Shown here piece by piece: positions 8,168 to 19,739 of a stretch of 23,760 nucleotides of DNA. Source of the DNA: a virus. The stretch covers positions 1-23,760 of IMG/VR virus record IMGVR_UViG_3300010885_015368. One strand, given 5' to 3'. The position numbers and the translations under genes are program-made. Numbering within the stretch: the first letter of the stretch is position 1; each line of letters begins with the position of its first letter. A model generated the notes under the pieces. It saw only the letters and a list, made by a program, of their open reading frames with translations, ran no database searches and was not told where the DNA came from.

Positions 8168-8351
8168 GGTGCGGTGCAATATGGTGCAATGCAACAATGG
8201 TGCAATGCAACATGGGCAATATGGTGCGGTGCAACAATGGTGCGGTGCAACATGACGCATCGTTTAAACAGGGTGGCAATATGGTGCGGTGCAACATGAC
8301 CGATACGGATGTTAGTGGGGGCTAACATAGTGTCAATATGGTGCGGTGCAA
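8168..8351. repeat. Tandem/interspersed GGTGCRRTGCAA array
   Basis: Seven copies of GGTGCGGTGCAA or GGTGCAATGCAA start at 8168, 8183, 8199, 8223, 8239, 8283 and 8340, mostly within a larger unit CAATATGGTGCGGTGCAACATG (split here: CAATAT, GGTGCGGTGCAA, CATG). Spacing is 15-16 bp inside pairs and 24-57 bp between them. Degenerate copies lie near 8101 and 8394. Each box is itself a GGTGC/GTGCA near-repeat. The short, regular spacing suits cooperative protein binding (iterons). It is not a CRISPR: there are no constant 30-bp spacers. A GTTTAAAC (8262) interrupts the array. Confidence 0.8.
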
Positions 8352-8471
8352 CATGGCTATGCGGGTGCGAGAGCATGAAGGGGTGGAGGGAGTAATGTTG
8401 CAACGCAACAATCACAAACCCTGTTCAACTTCAAAGAAAGTGCCATCCAACATGACAATCCAATCCAAAGG

Positions 8472-8664
8472 GTTTTAAGGGGGTTTATAGCCGACTTAGC
8501 CCCCTTGCTTACCTTACTATTCCACCCCTTGCGATCTCGATTTTGTAAGGGTAAACCCTAATAGGGTTTGTCCCAATGCCCACCCTGTTTAAACCATGAG
8601 AGTATTGAGGGGTCAGGGGCTTTCCCTGTCAAATTGATCACTAACCATAAGAGGAAATAGAACA
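8472..8664 (+). promoter_or_regulatory. Conserved leader, copy A, upstream of sprT-like gene
   Basis: This ~193-nt stretch has a close relative at 10000-10201. Shared blocks are GTTTTAAGGGG with TTTATAGCCGAC (24 nt, one difference), CCACCCC...CTCGATTTT.TAA.GGTAAACCCT, and TGAT.ACTAACC.ATAAG with GGAAATAGAACAATG at the gene start. AAGGGGG (8478) can pair with CCCCCTT (8500) around the TTTATAGCCGAC segment. An inverted repeat AAACCCTA-A-TAGGGTTT lies at 8553-8569, which looks like an operator. The end supplies the Shine-Dalgarno AGAGGAAA. Conservation of such a leader upstream of two different genes suggests shared control, either a promoter/operator or a structured RNA. Confidence 0.6.
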
Positions 8665-9312
8665 ATGTTATTGCTAACCTACACCCCCGCCACAGTAGCC
8701 ACCACCGCCAATCGTGAGGCATGGCTCAACACCATTACCAATCGGTTCATTCGCCCCCTGTTTGCATCCAAGGGCTACACCATCCCCGCCAATGTGCGTT
8801 TGTCATGCTCACTATCATCAAGTGGCATCCACACCAAAAAGCATCAAAAGAAATTCACCCTTGGTGAGTGCTATTCGCCAACCGCATCAGGTGACAACAC
8901 TATCGAAATCATGATCGTGCCAACCCTAGCCGATTCTGCAAGGGTCATTGATGTGCTAGTGCATGAATTGTGCCATGCCACAGTAGGCAATAAAGAGGGT
9001 CACAACAATGTATTTGGGGCTTGTGCTAGGGCTGTTGGCTTAGAGGGCAAACTCACCAGTACCAATGCGGGTGAGTGGCTTAAAGCCCTTATCGCCCAAT
9101 GGATTGAGGCAGAGGGTGAGTATCCCCATGCCAAACTATCCACAGGCTACCGCAAGCAATCCACTAGAATGCACAAGTGTGATTGCCCCTGTGGCTACAC
9201 TATGCGTATCTCTAGCAAGTGGCTCAAACTGGCTACCCCTAGATGCCCCCTTGGTCATGGCGATATGACCCATGACTTTTTGCCTGAGTATGACTATGAG
9301 GGCGAGGAATAA
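8665..9312 (+). CDS. SprT-like zinc metalloprotease with zinc ribbon
   Basis: A 215-residue protein. VIDVLVHELCHATVGNKEGHNNVF (about 94-117) carries the gluzincin motif HELCH (100-104) with a third metal ligand in the following GH (112-113), as in SprT/Spartan-type proteases. The C-terminus has a zinc ribbon made of CDCPC (172-176) and RCPLGH (193-197). Family members cleave DNA-bound or nucleic-acid-associated proteins; the substrate of this phage copy is unknown. The start follows AGAGGAAAT and a leader shared with the gene at 10202. Many short C-runs (CCCC) mark the local base use. Confidence in the fold is high; the biological role is inferred. Confidence 0.85.
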   Translation: MLLLTYTPATVATTANREAWLNTITNRFIRPLFASKGYTIPANVRLSCSLSSSGIHTKKHQKKFTLGECYSPTASGDNTIEIMIVPTLADSARVIDVLVHELCHATVGNKEGHNNVFGACARAVGLEGKLTSTNAGEWLKALIAQWIEAEGEYPHAKLSTGYRKQSTRMHKCDCPCGYTMRISSKWLKLATPRCPLGHGDMTHDFLPEYDYEGEE

Positions 9313-9321
9313 AAACTAATC

Positions 9322-9339
9322 GGGGGCAATCCTGCCCCC
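9322..9339 (+). terminator. GC hairpin after sprT-like gene
   Basis: GGGGGCA (9322-9328), loop ATCC, TGCCCCC (9333-9339) form a perfect 7-bp stem just after the stop. There is no T-run; TGTTTAAAC follows. It may slow or end transcription or protect the 3' end, but is not a canonical intrinsic terminator. Confidence 0.45.
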
Positions 9340-9365
9340 TGTTTAAACACTATTGGAGATTCTAA

Positions 9366-9869
9366 ATGAAAGTTTTTAAATTTGATGTAAGCAGATCAGC
9401 TAAGGGTGATTTCATTGAGGATATCGCCCGCCCTCACTCAACTGGTGGCATTGTTGAGGGTAAGATCACACCACCCCGCCACAATACCGCTACTCACTCA
9501 TGGCGGGTGATTGGTGAGGCGGGTTACAACACCAACCGCCCCAACCTTTCCTACCCTTTCCCTGTTTGCTTTTGCATGGGTCAATTCTCATGTGGTACTG
9601 AAGCCCCAATTTGGGAATGGGTGATTCTAATGCCCCGCAAAATTGCCCCCGTTGGTGATGATGCGTGTCAGGTGTTGCGTGATCAATTCCCCTTTGCGGT
9701 CAGAATGTTGGAGTGTATTGAGGGCGATAGCCTAGAGGATATAAACCCCGCAGATGTTCAGAATTTGCTAGACCAATGTTTAGCCGACCCCAACAAAATG
9801 GCAAGGGCATCCACAGAATTTTTTGCTAAAGAATTAAGTCTAGATTGGGAAATGGGTAGAGGGGAATAG
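9366..9869 (+). CDS. Hypothetical protein
   Basis: A 167-residue protein of unknown function (MKVFKFDVSRSAKGDFIEDI...). The middle is Pro/aromatic-rich with a small Cys cluster (PVCFCMGQFSCG), which could bind a metal or simply be structural. The C-terminal third is acidic and helical (LEDINPADVQNLLDQCLADPN). It starts 18 nt after the GTTTAAAC at 9341, with GGAG at 9355 as Shine-Dalgarno. It follows the SprT-like gene and is closed by a strong terminator, so the two probably form one transcription unit. Confidence 0.65.
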   Translation: MKVFKFDVSRSAKGDFIEDIARPHSTGGIVEGKITPPRHNTATHSWRVIGEAGYNTNRPNLSYPFPVCFCMGQFSCGTEAPIWEWVILMPRKIAPVGDDACQVLRDQFPFAVRMLECIEGDSLEDINPADVQNLLDQCLADPNKMARASTEFFAKELSLDWEMGRGE

Positions 9870-9886
9870 CCCACCTTGTTTAAACA

Positions 9887-18835: not shown

Positions 18836-19103
18836 TGAACAAAAACAAAAATATGCCCTCTTTATACAAGCTAGGGACAGGATTCGACATTCTAATAAGT
18901 GGATACCGACAAAGGATGTCATCTGCACAGTTGATGTAACTGGTTTAAACCACCCCCTCTATAAAGCAAACTATGCTTATTTACACTATCAGGAGATGTT
19001 TAAACAATGGCTTGCAGTTGAGCCTGAGTATAGGAAAACAGAAAAGATGAGCATGATTAGGGGTGATTATGAAAAACAAGACACATGGAAGGGTGAAAAA
19101 TGA
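18828..19103 (+). CDS. Hypothetical protein next to sigma gene
   Basis: A 91-residue protein (MTDEQKQKYALFIQARDRIR..., then YLHYQEMFKQWLAVEPEYRK). ATG 18828 overlaps the sigma stop by 8 nt and has GAGGAA as Shine-Dalgarno; an in-frame upstream ATG (18801) lacks one. GTTTAAAC copies code Gly-Leu-Asn and Met-Phe-Lys. It does not look like a missing sigma region 4. Because it is coupled to the sigma gene, a partner protein is possible but unproven. Confidence 0.6.
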   Translation: MTDEQKQKYALFIQARDRIRHSNKWIPTKDVICTVDVTGLNHPLYKANYAYLHYQEMFKQWLAVEPEYRKTEKMSMIRGDYEKQDTWKGEK

Positions 19104-19291
19104 GGGCAATACCGATAGATGTATATGATAAAGACGGCAACCTAGTCAAAATTGAAGTAACAGATTCGGCTGGTGAGTTTATAATACAGTCCTTGTGGGA
19201 TGAAAATGATGCACAAACCCATGAGAACCGAATCAAATTTAGAGAATGGACATACAGTCATTTAAGGAGAATTGGGTATGAAATCGATTAA
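19100..19291 (+). CDS. Small acidic hypothetical protein
   Basis: A 63-residue protein (MRAIPIDVYDKDGNLVKIEV..., then ENRIKFREWTYSHLRRIGYE). The first part is a short beta hairpin (PIDVYDKDGNLVKIEVTD), the second a basic helix. The start overlaps the previous stop by 4 nt (ATGA). The last 14 nt overlap the next gene, giving four overlapping genes in a row from the sigma gene. Confidence 0.6.
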   Translation: MRAIPIDVYDKDGNLVKIEVTDSAGEFIIQSLWDENDAQTHENRIKFREWTYSHLRRIGYEID

Positions 19292-19418
19292 ATTAGCATT
19301 GGCAACACTATTATTAGTTCAATCTATCAGCGTTTTGGCAGATACAGTCATTATTAACACACCTGGAGGCGGTCAGACAGTTTGCATCGTCCAAGGTAAT
19401 GTTGTTACCTGTTTTTAA
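19278..19418 (+). CDS. Small exported protein with two cysteines
   Basis: A 46-residue protein. MKSIKLALATLLLVQSISVL, then AD, is a clear signal peptide with cleavage expected after ADT or SVLA-D. The mature part (TVIINTPGGGQTVCIVQGNV, then VTCF) is only about 24 residues, with two Cys that could pair in the periplasm. Small secreted proteins with a PxGxxxxC...C end seem familiar from aquatic proteobacteria and their phages, but I cannot name a family. The Shine-Dalgarno is AAGGAGA (19264). It is the last gene before the origin-like repeat; superinfection exclusion would be one possible role, unproven. Confidence 0.6.
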   Translation: MKSIKLALATLLLVQSISVLADTVIINTPGGGQTVCIVQGNVVTCF

Positions 19419-19466
19419 GCCTTCTTAGGATTAATTTTGTTTTGATTTGAACTTTCAAATGAATTG

Positions 19467-19664
19467 AAATTGTCATAGTAGTCATAGTAGTCAGGGTCTA
19501 TTTCACTTTATCCCTCCCCTTACGTTTTTTATTTTTTTAAATTTAAAAAAAGATAAAGTAAGGGTGACTACTGTGACTACTGTTACTATCAAGGACTTAC
19601 AAGCGTAGTCTCAACGAACTATCAAGGACTTACAGCGCACACTTAAAGTATGGATAGTCAGGGT
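19467..19664. repeat. Origin-like ~200-bp repeat, copy 2
   Basis: The second direct copy of 7773-7980, 11.7 kb away in the same orientation. It keeps the paired AGTAGTCA boxes (19478, 19487), the inverted TGACTACT boxes (about 19565 and 19574), the identical T-tract block (19521-19541), the A/T core, and two ACTATCAAGGACTTAC copies (about 19585 and 19618). Only the spacer sequences differ. It sits 82 bp upstream of the primase/helicase gene, the usual place for a phage origin bound by its own initiator. Confidence 0.7.
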
Positions 19665-19677
19665 GCGTAAAAACAAC

Positions 19678-19694
19678 ATTTCACAATGTGAAAT
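19678..19694. promoter_or_regulatory. Operator-like palindrome ATTTCACA-A-TGTGAAAT
   Basis: A perfect 8+1+8 inverted repeat 14 bp upstream of the -35 box of the primase promoter. A 15-bp relative (TTTCATATTGTGAAA, one base off symmetry) lies in the sigma gene promoter. This shape is typical of a dimeric helix-turn-helix regulator site; the regulator is not identified in this window. Confidence 0.6.
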
Positions 19695-19709
19695 AAGTGA
19701 ACAATTTGG

Positions 19710-19739
19710 TTGCAAATCGGTTTAAACAGCATATAAAAT
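19710..19739 (+). promoter_or_regulatory. Promoter candidate of the primase gene; possibly leaderless
   Basis: TTGCAA (19710-19715), a 16-bp spacer, then TATAAA (19732-19737). The start of transcription would fall within a few bases of the ATG at 19746, giving a leaderless or near-leaderless message, and no Shine-Dalgarno is visible (ACCTCC precedes the ATG). GTTTAAAC (19720-19727) lies inside the spacer, where a bound protein would affect polymerase. Confidence 0.55.

Follow-up and report, generated by a model that had tools for sequence, protein, structure and literature searches.

The DNA analyzed here is the whole stretch of 23,760 nucleotides (positions 1 to 23,760) of the IMG/VR virus record IMGVR_UViG_3300010885_015368, referred to below as the window. 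This 23.8-kb phage record is probably a fragment. Its leftward genes (1234-7444) include those for a GroES-like protein and for portal and terminase pieces, and its rightward genes, starting at 8665, encode a SprT-like protein, an ATPase (PHROG 1297, with a weak AAA_5 match), a DUF2201 metallopeptidase/vWA protein, a sigma-like protein and a primase. The palindrome GTTTAAAC occurs 40 times in the window, and 38 of these copies form a dense stretch that extends from just 5′ of the SprT-like gene (sprT) to just 5′ of the primase gene (Table 1).

The number of copies in the segment and of those outside it reproduced exactly the count made in a first-pass annotation of the same DNA. The expected number in the 11.5-kb segment was 0.31 from base composition and 0.33, 0.40 and 2.0 from Markov models of orders 1, 2 and 3, respectively. 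A Markov expectation near 38 had been set beforehand as the result that would sink the word, and the word survived with 0.40 at order 2. Models of orders 4-6 gave 10-34 because they hold sub-words of GTTTAAAC itself. Every other 8-bp palindrome was found at most twice in the window, and chance in AT-rich DNA was ruled out as the source of the excess by composition-matched and palindrome-wide controls. One-mismatch variants numbered 18 across the whole window and 6 inside the segment; therefore, it is the exact sequence that is maintained. The copies are also evenly spaced, with a coefficient of variation of 0.58 versus 0.96 for random placement, and none of 2,000 random placements was equally even. 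Approximate gene calls place 21 of the 38 sites within genes (14 in the Leu-Asn frame and 7 in the Phe-Lys frame), 9 over a stop codon and 8 in intergenic positions. The earlier tally of 7 Phe-Lys and 8 non-coding sites agrees with these numbers, and its 12 Leu-Asn and 11 stop-codon sites are now 14 and 9.

Homologous DNA was then compared. In seven relatives with 75-77% DNA identity (L001-L007), 76-88% of the aligned window sites were retained, compared with 15-22% of other 8-mers that contain six A/T letters; the sites may themselves have guided the alignment, and this excess is possibly somewhat inflated. L011 retained 17 of 20 sites, and retention was weaker in L008 (6/14) and L018 (7/14), at 43-50% against a background of 14-19%. 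L169, nearly the same virus (99.3% identity, three of three sites retained), was left out of the range. Where Leu-Asn is encoded in both species, 59 of 63 site pairs had identical codons, compared with 8 of 41 other pairs; the Phe-Lys codon pairs (27/27 at sites, 11/11 elsewhere) were uninformative. These comparisons indicate that GTTTAAAC is under selection. They support the first-pass view that the DNA word, and not a peptide, is selected, and the positions of the word do not vary freely in homologues. A pyrimidine is favored before the word and a purine after it. A role as recombination seam was rejected, as positions are conserved singly and about half are intragenic.

Association of the palindrome with a SprT-like family

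The association between the word and the SprT-like family was assessed in both directions. Identical proteins or DNA were counted once in the tables of relatives and in the palindrome, patch, gene-group and identity-band counts; the rows on ATG offsets, on sites upstream of sprT and on promoter spacers were taken as found, duplicates included, and the ATG-offset sets share contigs. Starting from the word, a scan for three spaced copies of GTTTAAAC yielded 88 viral stretches with densities of up to 4.5 copies per kb (4.45 in L102), 8 of them on contigs already present in the DUF2201 set described below. Seventy of the 88 lie on contigs that carry the family, 54 with the member in the locus and 16 of the remaining 34 with it elsewhere on the contig; FmdB-like matches in G020, G027 and G034 were discounted, G020 being a weak 17th of those 34. 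When open reading frames (ORFs) were clustered, the SprT-like family was found in 76 loci, all of them word-rich and none word-poor, and no other all-word-rich cluster reached so far outside the window's own phage group.

In the other direction, protein-sequence searches of genomes, viral contigs and named phages yielded 158 distinct relatives. Seventy-six of them are located in GTTTAAAC-enriched DNA, at G+C contents of 0.33-0.68, and the best of 255 other palindromes was enriched around only 5 of the 158. The word was enriched in none of 57 word-poor control loci. Among 80 loci retrieved by the neighboring DUF2201 protein, of which 23 were word-rich and 57 word-poor, the family was present in 21 of the former and none of the latter, and the two word-rich loci without it (L002 and L016) start less than 2 kb from a contig end. 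A whole-contig search of 25 word-poor DUF2201 loci, made without a positive control, found no family member. On the DUF2201 tree the word-rich label needs at least two changes, and a single origin remains compatible with it. GTTTAAAC was enriched in 7 of 12 named phages. The whole genomes of Pan1 and R5C hold 16 and 17 copies, and there are 8 copies in Alexa, 7 in Arya, 6 in Bas97, 4 in Persinger and 2 in Marky (49.7 kb covered); none was found in Zeta1847, Crewmate or Sharkboy, nor in the covered parts of MW2 and Epa43. The plasmids MGMAQ_p and pUT1 have 18 copies (0.39 expected) and 5 copies (0.03 expected). Elements with the word come from cyanobacterial, proteobacterial and actinobacterial hosts.

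The window protein matches PF10263 with 28.2 bits (curated cut-off, 25.6) and has the zinc-protease motif HExxH; 71 of 84 aligned family members match PF10263 at E ≤ 1. This motif is missing from 26 of 46 distinct members of the pattern-hit set, from none of 18 window kin and from 1 of the 158 protein-fetched relatives, a figure that is biased because the protein searches partly used HExxH. A predicted model of the protein (predicted local distance difference test score, 91.4) had its best fold matches among zincin-type proteases, which were weak (Z ≤ 5.9) and barely covered the C-terminal ribbon. Foldseek gave no match of the model below E 0.001, and a sequence comparison gave no meaningful solved relatives.

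The comparison of relatives indicates that the association requires a C-terminal Q-x-[T/A]-R patch. None of the 28 relatives without the patch was enriched for GTTTAAAC, compared with 76 of 130 that have it. The rule was too strict once, as MGMAQ_p has Q-S-I-R together with its 18 sites. In five word-rich contigs (2.3-4.2 copies per kb in their loci) only the patch and the ribbon were found, equivalent to the final ~46 positions of the model. Their frames span 60-111 codons, and the likely ATG leaves 55-57 residues; these contigs are fragments, and a full-length copy may lie beyond their ends. The loss of HExxH and the patch-and-ribbon-only versions suggest that the association is independent of protease activity, and it probably needs no protease domain at all.

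Copies of the word were also found at the sprT gene itself, in its promoter or within it, but not at every locus. At 11 of 255 sprT loci (raw count; 8 distinct, all of one group) GTTTAAAC is inside the −35/−10 spacer, and at three further loci (raw count; 2 distinct) it is just behind the −10 element. This group was labeled actinophage-like, the representatives of its other genes including a WhiB protein. TTGACA with at most one mismatch peaks at the offset that matches the spacer (62 versus a median of 25). In the gammaproteobacterial phages Alexa, Bas97, Arya and Persinger the distance from the start of the word to the downstream sprT start codon is 24-28 bp. In low-density loci a site was present within 120 bp upstream of sprT in 14 of 98 cases (2.5 expected) and inside the gene in 67 of 100 (13.7 expected). 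The word covers Phe104-Lys105 in all 29 distinct genes with 60% or more identity to protein L239 of a sphingomonad. At 40-60% identity, 24 genes have Phe-Lys at that position and 20 of them carry the word there; at 25-40%, 6 of 31 carry it. Elsewhere in the set with at least 60% identity, Phe is encoded by TTT in 33 of 145 cases and Lys by AAA in 79 of 211.

The distribution of the remaining sites differs between elements. Three contigs of 42-66 kb from the window's kin have 30 of 32, 34 of 44 and 21 of 25 sites in one 12-kb stretch, and the first-pass statement that the word is confined to one segment stands for these close kin. It does not stand generally, as the word is distributed over the whole genome in other phages and plasmids, in steps of 4-5 kb on average in Pan1 and R5C. 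The five pUT1 sites are at 2491 and 21317-31257, with none in the transposon-laden 5-21 kb. Over whole elements, the fraction of random placements as even as the observed one was 0.4% for Pan1, 2.8% for R5C, 3.3% for Bas97 and 1.7% for MGMAQ_p; for Alexa, Arya and pUT1 the evenness was not significant. Among 116 loci with at least eight sites, which partly overlap, the coefficient of variation was under the random mean in 80, and 48 were even and 20 clustered at the 5% level.

Proposed reading of the palindrome and its alternatives

Based on these sequence comparisons, we consider it highly probable that GTTTAAAC, or more fully Y-GTTTAAAC-R, is a double-stranded DNA site read by the element-encoded SprT-like protein of PHROG 6361. 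A binding site of a phage protein was the first of the possible jobs listed in the first-pass annotation, and the comparative evidence favors it. In the proposed mechanism, a short C-terminal module consisting of the basic Q-x-T-R patch and the zinc ribbon would bind the word directly, presumably as a symmetric dimer. The protein would control its own gene, presumably negatively, through the site in the promoter or the gene, and would occupy many further dispersed sites. The protease domain, which was lost in some word-rich phages, would presumably have a role in the system. In the window's group the sites are packed into an early operon that starts with sprT, so the likeliest job would be damping or switching off early transcription by roadblocks similar to those formed at stoperators. 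The explanation as a whole, with a SprT-like reader, control of its own gene, many occupied sites and roadblocks, appears reasonably likely to us, and that transcription control is the main job of the system is a tentative proposal with nearly even chances. The linkage points to a DNA-marking or gene-control system that has so far not been described. Among the literature matches listed, titles and abstracts contained nothing on the GTTTAAAC-SprT pair, subscription papers being only partly covered.

Several observations weigh against this explanation. No family member was found on the contigs of 18 of the 88 word-rich stretches, 9 of which are under 8 kb and 9 of 10-37 kb, two of the latter with 29% G+C. 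The 6 kb upstream, where sprT is expected, were present in only 26 of 56 word-poor DUF2201 loci. The 141 enriched loci formed 26 gene-content groups, defined by two or more shared genes besides sprT, and sprT was called in 21 of them and the next family in 6. This spread is partly by construction because the loci were mostly chosen for carrying sprT, and with one shared gene as the threshold 139 of the 141 loci fall into one group. Kinship among loci inflates all counts. Fifty-four of the 130 patch-bearing relatives were not enriched, including the Arthrobacter and Microbacterium phage versions, and 50 kb of a Pseudomonas viciae plasmid that carries a relative with Q-S-K-R had no copy (0.59 expected). 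Most sites are away from recognizable promoters; the 2,103 distinct contexts showed only a small excess at promoter offsets, and general promoter overlap was rejected. Sites are spread over the whole element in Pan1, R5C and MGMAQ_p, and an early shut-off needs no such spread. Finally, stoperator motifs differ between phages, according to the part of the report available (PMC6550527), and the constancy of GTTTAAAC therefore counts against a plain immunity repressor.

The strongest rival, which we nonetheless regard as rather unlikely, is that the protein guards the genome: placed at regular stations on the element DNA, it would block, or cut by its protease domain, host defense proteins that run along or bind the incoming DNA. 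The presence of the system on both phages and conjugative plasmids, the even spacing over whole elements in Pan1, R5C, Bas97 and MGMAQ_p and the position of sprT at the head of the early operon are consistent with it. ArdC, an antirestriction protein with a SprT-like protease domain, is a precedent, but it binds single-stranded DNA non-specifically (PMC7213743, as far as the available part goes). The lack of significantly even spacing in Alexa, Arya and pUT1, the concentration of sites in one 12-kb stretch in the window's kin and the existence of patch-and-ribbon-only versions also speak against a guard. In a broader speculation that we consider improbable, the patch and ribbon (~45 residues) would be a new sequence-specific DNA-binding domain whose single code, GTTTAAAC, has stayed frozen across unrelated phages and conjugative plasmids from three phyla or more. 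The SprT-like protease fused to it would be a cargo stationed on the element genome that clears host proteins from the DNA, and some phages would have lost the cargo and kept the DNA-bound reader.

The protein could instead gather the sites to shape, replicate or partition the element; on pUT1, sprT adjoins repA and an AAA ATPase gene, and on MGMAQ_p it is close to ParA. Known systems of gathered sites include parS and matS, and the even spacing in some elements would fit. However, the density ranges from 4.45 copies per kb in L102 to 2 copies in 49.7 kb in Marky, and the sites of the window's kin are concentrated in the early operon; we give such an organizing or segregating role little chance. 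Only slightly credible is a host protein as the reader, with the SprT-like protein as its target or merely regulated by it. It fits poorly with the same word in elements of hosts as different as cyanobacteria, proteobacteria and actinobacteria, with the occurrence of sprT in most gene-content groups (of loci mostly chosen for it) and with the dependence on the Q-x-T-R patch.

A modification or restriction tag modeled on HIP1 is very improbable. GTTTAAAC is an 8-bp palindrome, the PmeI word, and Crewmate has a methylase gene adjoining sprT, yet it has no copy of the word. No methyltransferase was matched in the 30 window ORFs scanned (of 77 of at least 60 amino acids), on which basis HIP1-like methylation was rejected, and no family besides sprT spans more than 6 of the 26 groups. 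An RNA signal at the ribosome-binding site has hardly any chance, although an mRNA signal was also among the jobs listed at first: an ATG follows 0 or 1 base downstream at 20 of 40 window sites and at 192 of 555 sites in 23 relatives (62 of 555 on the other side), but gene junctions may simply carry the least coding constraint, copies are also found inside genes, and those in the −35/−10 spacer are untranscribed, which favors DNA over RNA as the target. A promoter word of the phage's own sigma-like protein (18263-18835) was rejected as well, that family being present in 23 loci only and the copies between the Shine-Dalgarno sequence and the start codon being too far downstream for the promoter of their own gene.

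Comparison with known systems and other features of the window

The nearest kin of a system read by the SprT-like protein are the stoperators by anatomy, HIP1 by appearance, and ArdC and SPRTN by protein. In the available parts of the reports, the stoperators of cluster A mycobacteriophages, bound by the L5 repressor, are dispersed in promoter regions and short intergenic spaces, and an autoregulatory site is proposed at the repressor gene (PMC9283540, PMC6550527). In both systems, a single DNA-binding protein encoded by the phage would have numerous scattered sites, one of them at its own gene. As far as those parts describe them, stoperators are asymmetric 13-bp sites oriented with transcription and bound by a repressor with a helix-turn-helix domain. 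In contrast, GTTTAAAC is a perfect palindrome of 8-10 bp, hence without orientation, more than half of its window sites are intragenic (21/38), the proposed reader is a zinc-ribbon protein, and the word does not differ between phages and plasmids. HIP1 (GCGATCGC), a frequent word of cyanobacterial genomes, is linked to methyltransferases in the portion of the report available (PMC4390886). The parallel drawn with it in the first-pass annotation holds for the highly iterated 8-bp palindrome and otherwise looks superficial, as GTTTAAAC is a mobile-element word associated with a SprT-like protein, and no methyltransferase was matched in the window ORFs scanned.

According to the part of the report at hand, the protease domain of ArdC from plasmid R388 superposes on the SprT domain of Spartan, and its protease activity is dispensable for antirestriction (PMC7213743). 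It resembles the present protein as a mobile-element protein with a SprT-like metalloprotease domain, and the association described here also seems to need no protease activity. The same part describes an N-terminal domain that binds single-stranded DNA non-specifically and mentions no dispersed palindrome. Pfam gave no match to an ArdC-type single-stranded DNA-binding domain in the 215-amino-acid window protein, and the model leaves no room for one at the N-terminus because it shows a single SprT-like domain with the ribbon C-terminal to it. SPRTN, which shares the SprT-like metallopeptidase domain (PF10263), is a DNA-dependent protease (PMC5127644, available part) and resolves DNA-protein crosslinks; the association with one exact DNA word and the frequent loss of the catalytic motif are new here. 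For the family of the proposed reader of these dispersed sites, no account of site-specific binding came up in the literature searched. Current annotations call phage and plasmid SprT-like proteins a protease, a transcription elongation protein or an antirestriction protein, and no tested role for them was found in the literature searched. Their link with the word assigns them an exact DNA site, points to the part likely to read it and makes their function testable in cultured phages. If binding is true, this would be a site-specific zinc-ribbon reader with a code fixed across unrelated mobile elements, and the system could be traced in metagenomes by computing the density of GTTTAAAC.

Table 1. 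Coordinates of the palindrome and of sprT in the window.
Feature	Position	Strand	Basis or remark
Early segment with 38 GTTTAAAC	8262..19727		Exact count, each site 8 bases
GTTTAAAC starts, part 1	8262, 8587, 9341, 9878, 9927, 10391, 10634, 10796, 11065, 11245, 11413, 11630, 11811		
GTTTAAAC starts, part 2	12056, 12303, 12756, 13160, 13344, 13568, 13720, 13876, 14081, 14417, 14837, 15202		
GTTTAAAC starts, part 3	15779, 15962, 16472, 16569, 16865, 17220, 17420, 17836, 18054, 18783, 18943, 18998, 19720		
Outlying GTTTAAAC in leftward packaging genes	7180..7187		
Outlying GTTTAAAC within primase gene	21896..21903		
Candidate autoregulatory GTTTAAAC, starting 78 bp 5′ of the sprT-like start codon	8587..8594		
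SprT-like gene, 215 amino acids, proposed reader, first rightward gene of the segment	8665..9312	+	PHROG 6361, PF10263
HELCH codons, zinc-protease motif (HExxH)	8962..8976	+	Protein sequence
Codons of RKQSTRMHK patch and zinc ribbon, C-terminal, proposed DNA-binding part	9151..9255	+	
GTTTAAAC over stop codon, TAA inside the word, next ATG at 10400	10391..10398		
GTTTAAAC between Shine-Dalgarno-like GGAGAG and ATG	13568..13575		
Intragenic GTTTAAAC, Leu-Asn frame	14417..14424		

No consistent other palindrome appeared in the word-less relatives. One patch-bearing SprT-like locus without GTTTAAAC (L297, 18.7 kb) has 16 copies of CCGATCGG, far over expectation, and perhaps represents a shifted specificity; L306, with a similar ribbon, shows no such excess. 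The G+C-rich loci L197 (a Streptomyces contig), L315 and L324 are enriched for TACTAGTA plus GTTTAAAC. In the close word-less relatives L019 and L020, TTTAAA does not occur (5.9 and 6.9 expected, respectively) and AAATTT is also absent, as if these sites were avoided; TTTAAA is near expectation in seven other word-less neighbors (L021, L022, L026, L028 and L030-L032).

Among the other genes of the window, a small ribbon-helix-helix protein (PF19839) is encoded at 11639-11827, with GTTTAAAC just 5′ of its start and another copy near its end, and it is a possible second DNA-binding protein of the operon. The leftward operon includes the GroES-like co-chaperonin gene at 1234-1671, and the large terminase is seemingly split into two overlapping genes (5016-6458 and 6452-7444) that match different parts of terminase profiles. 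The ATPase gene (12089-13165) is near the DUF2201 metallopeptidase/vWA gene (13906-15075), an arrangement similar to the MoxR-vWA pairing described for some jumbo phages in the available part of a report (PMC7824862).

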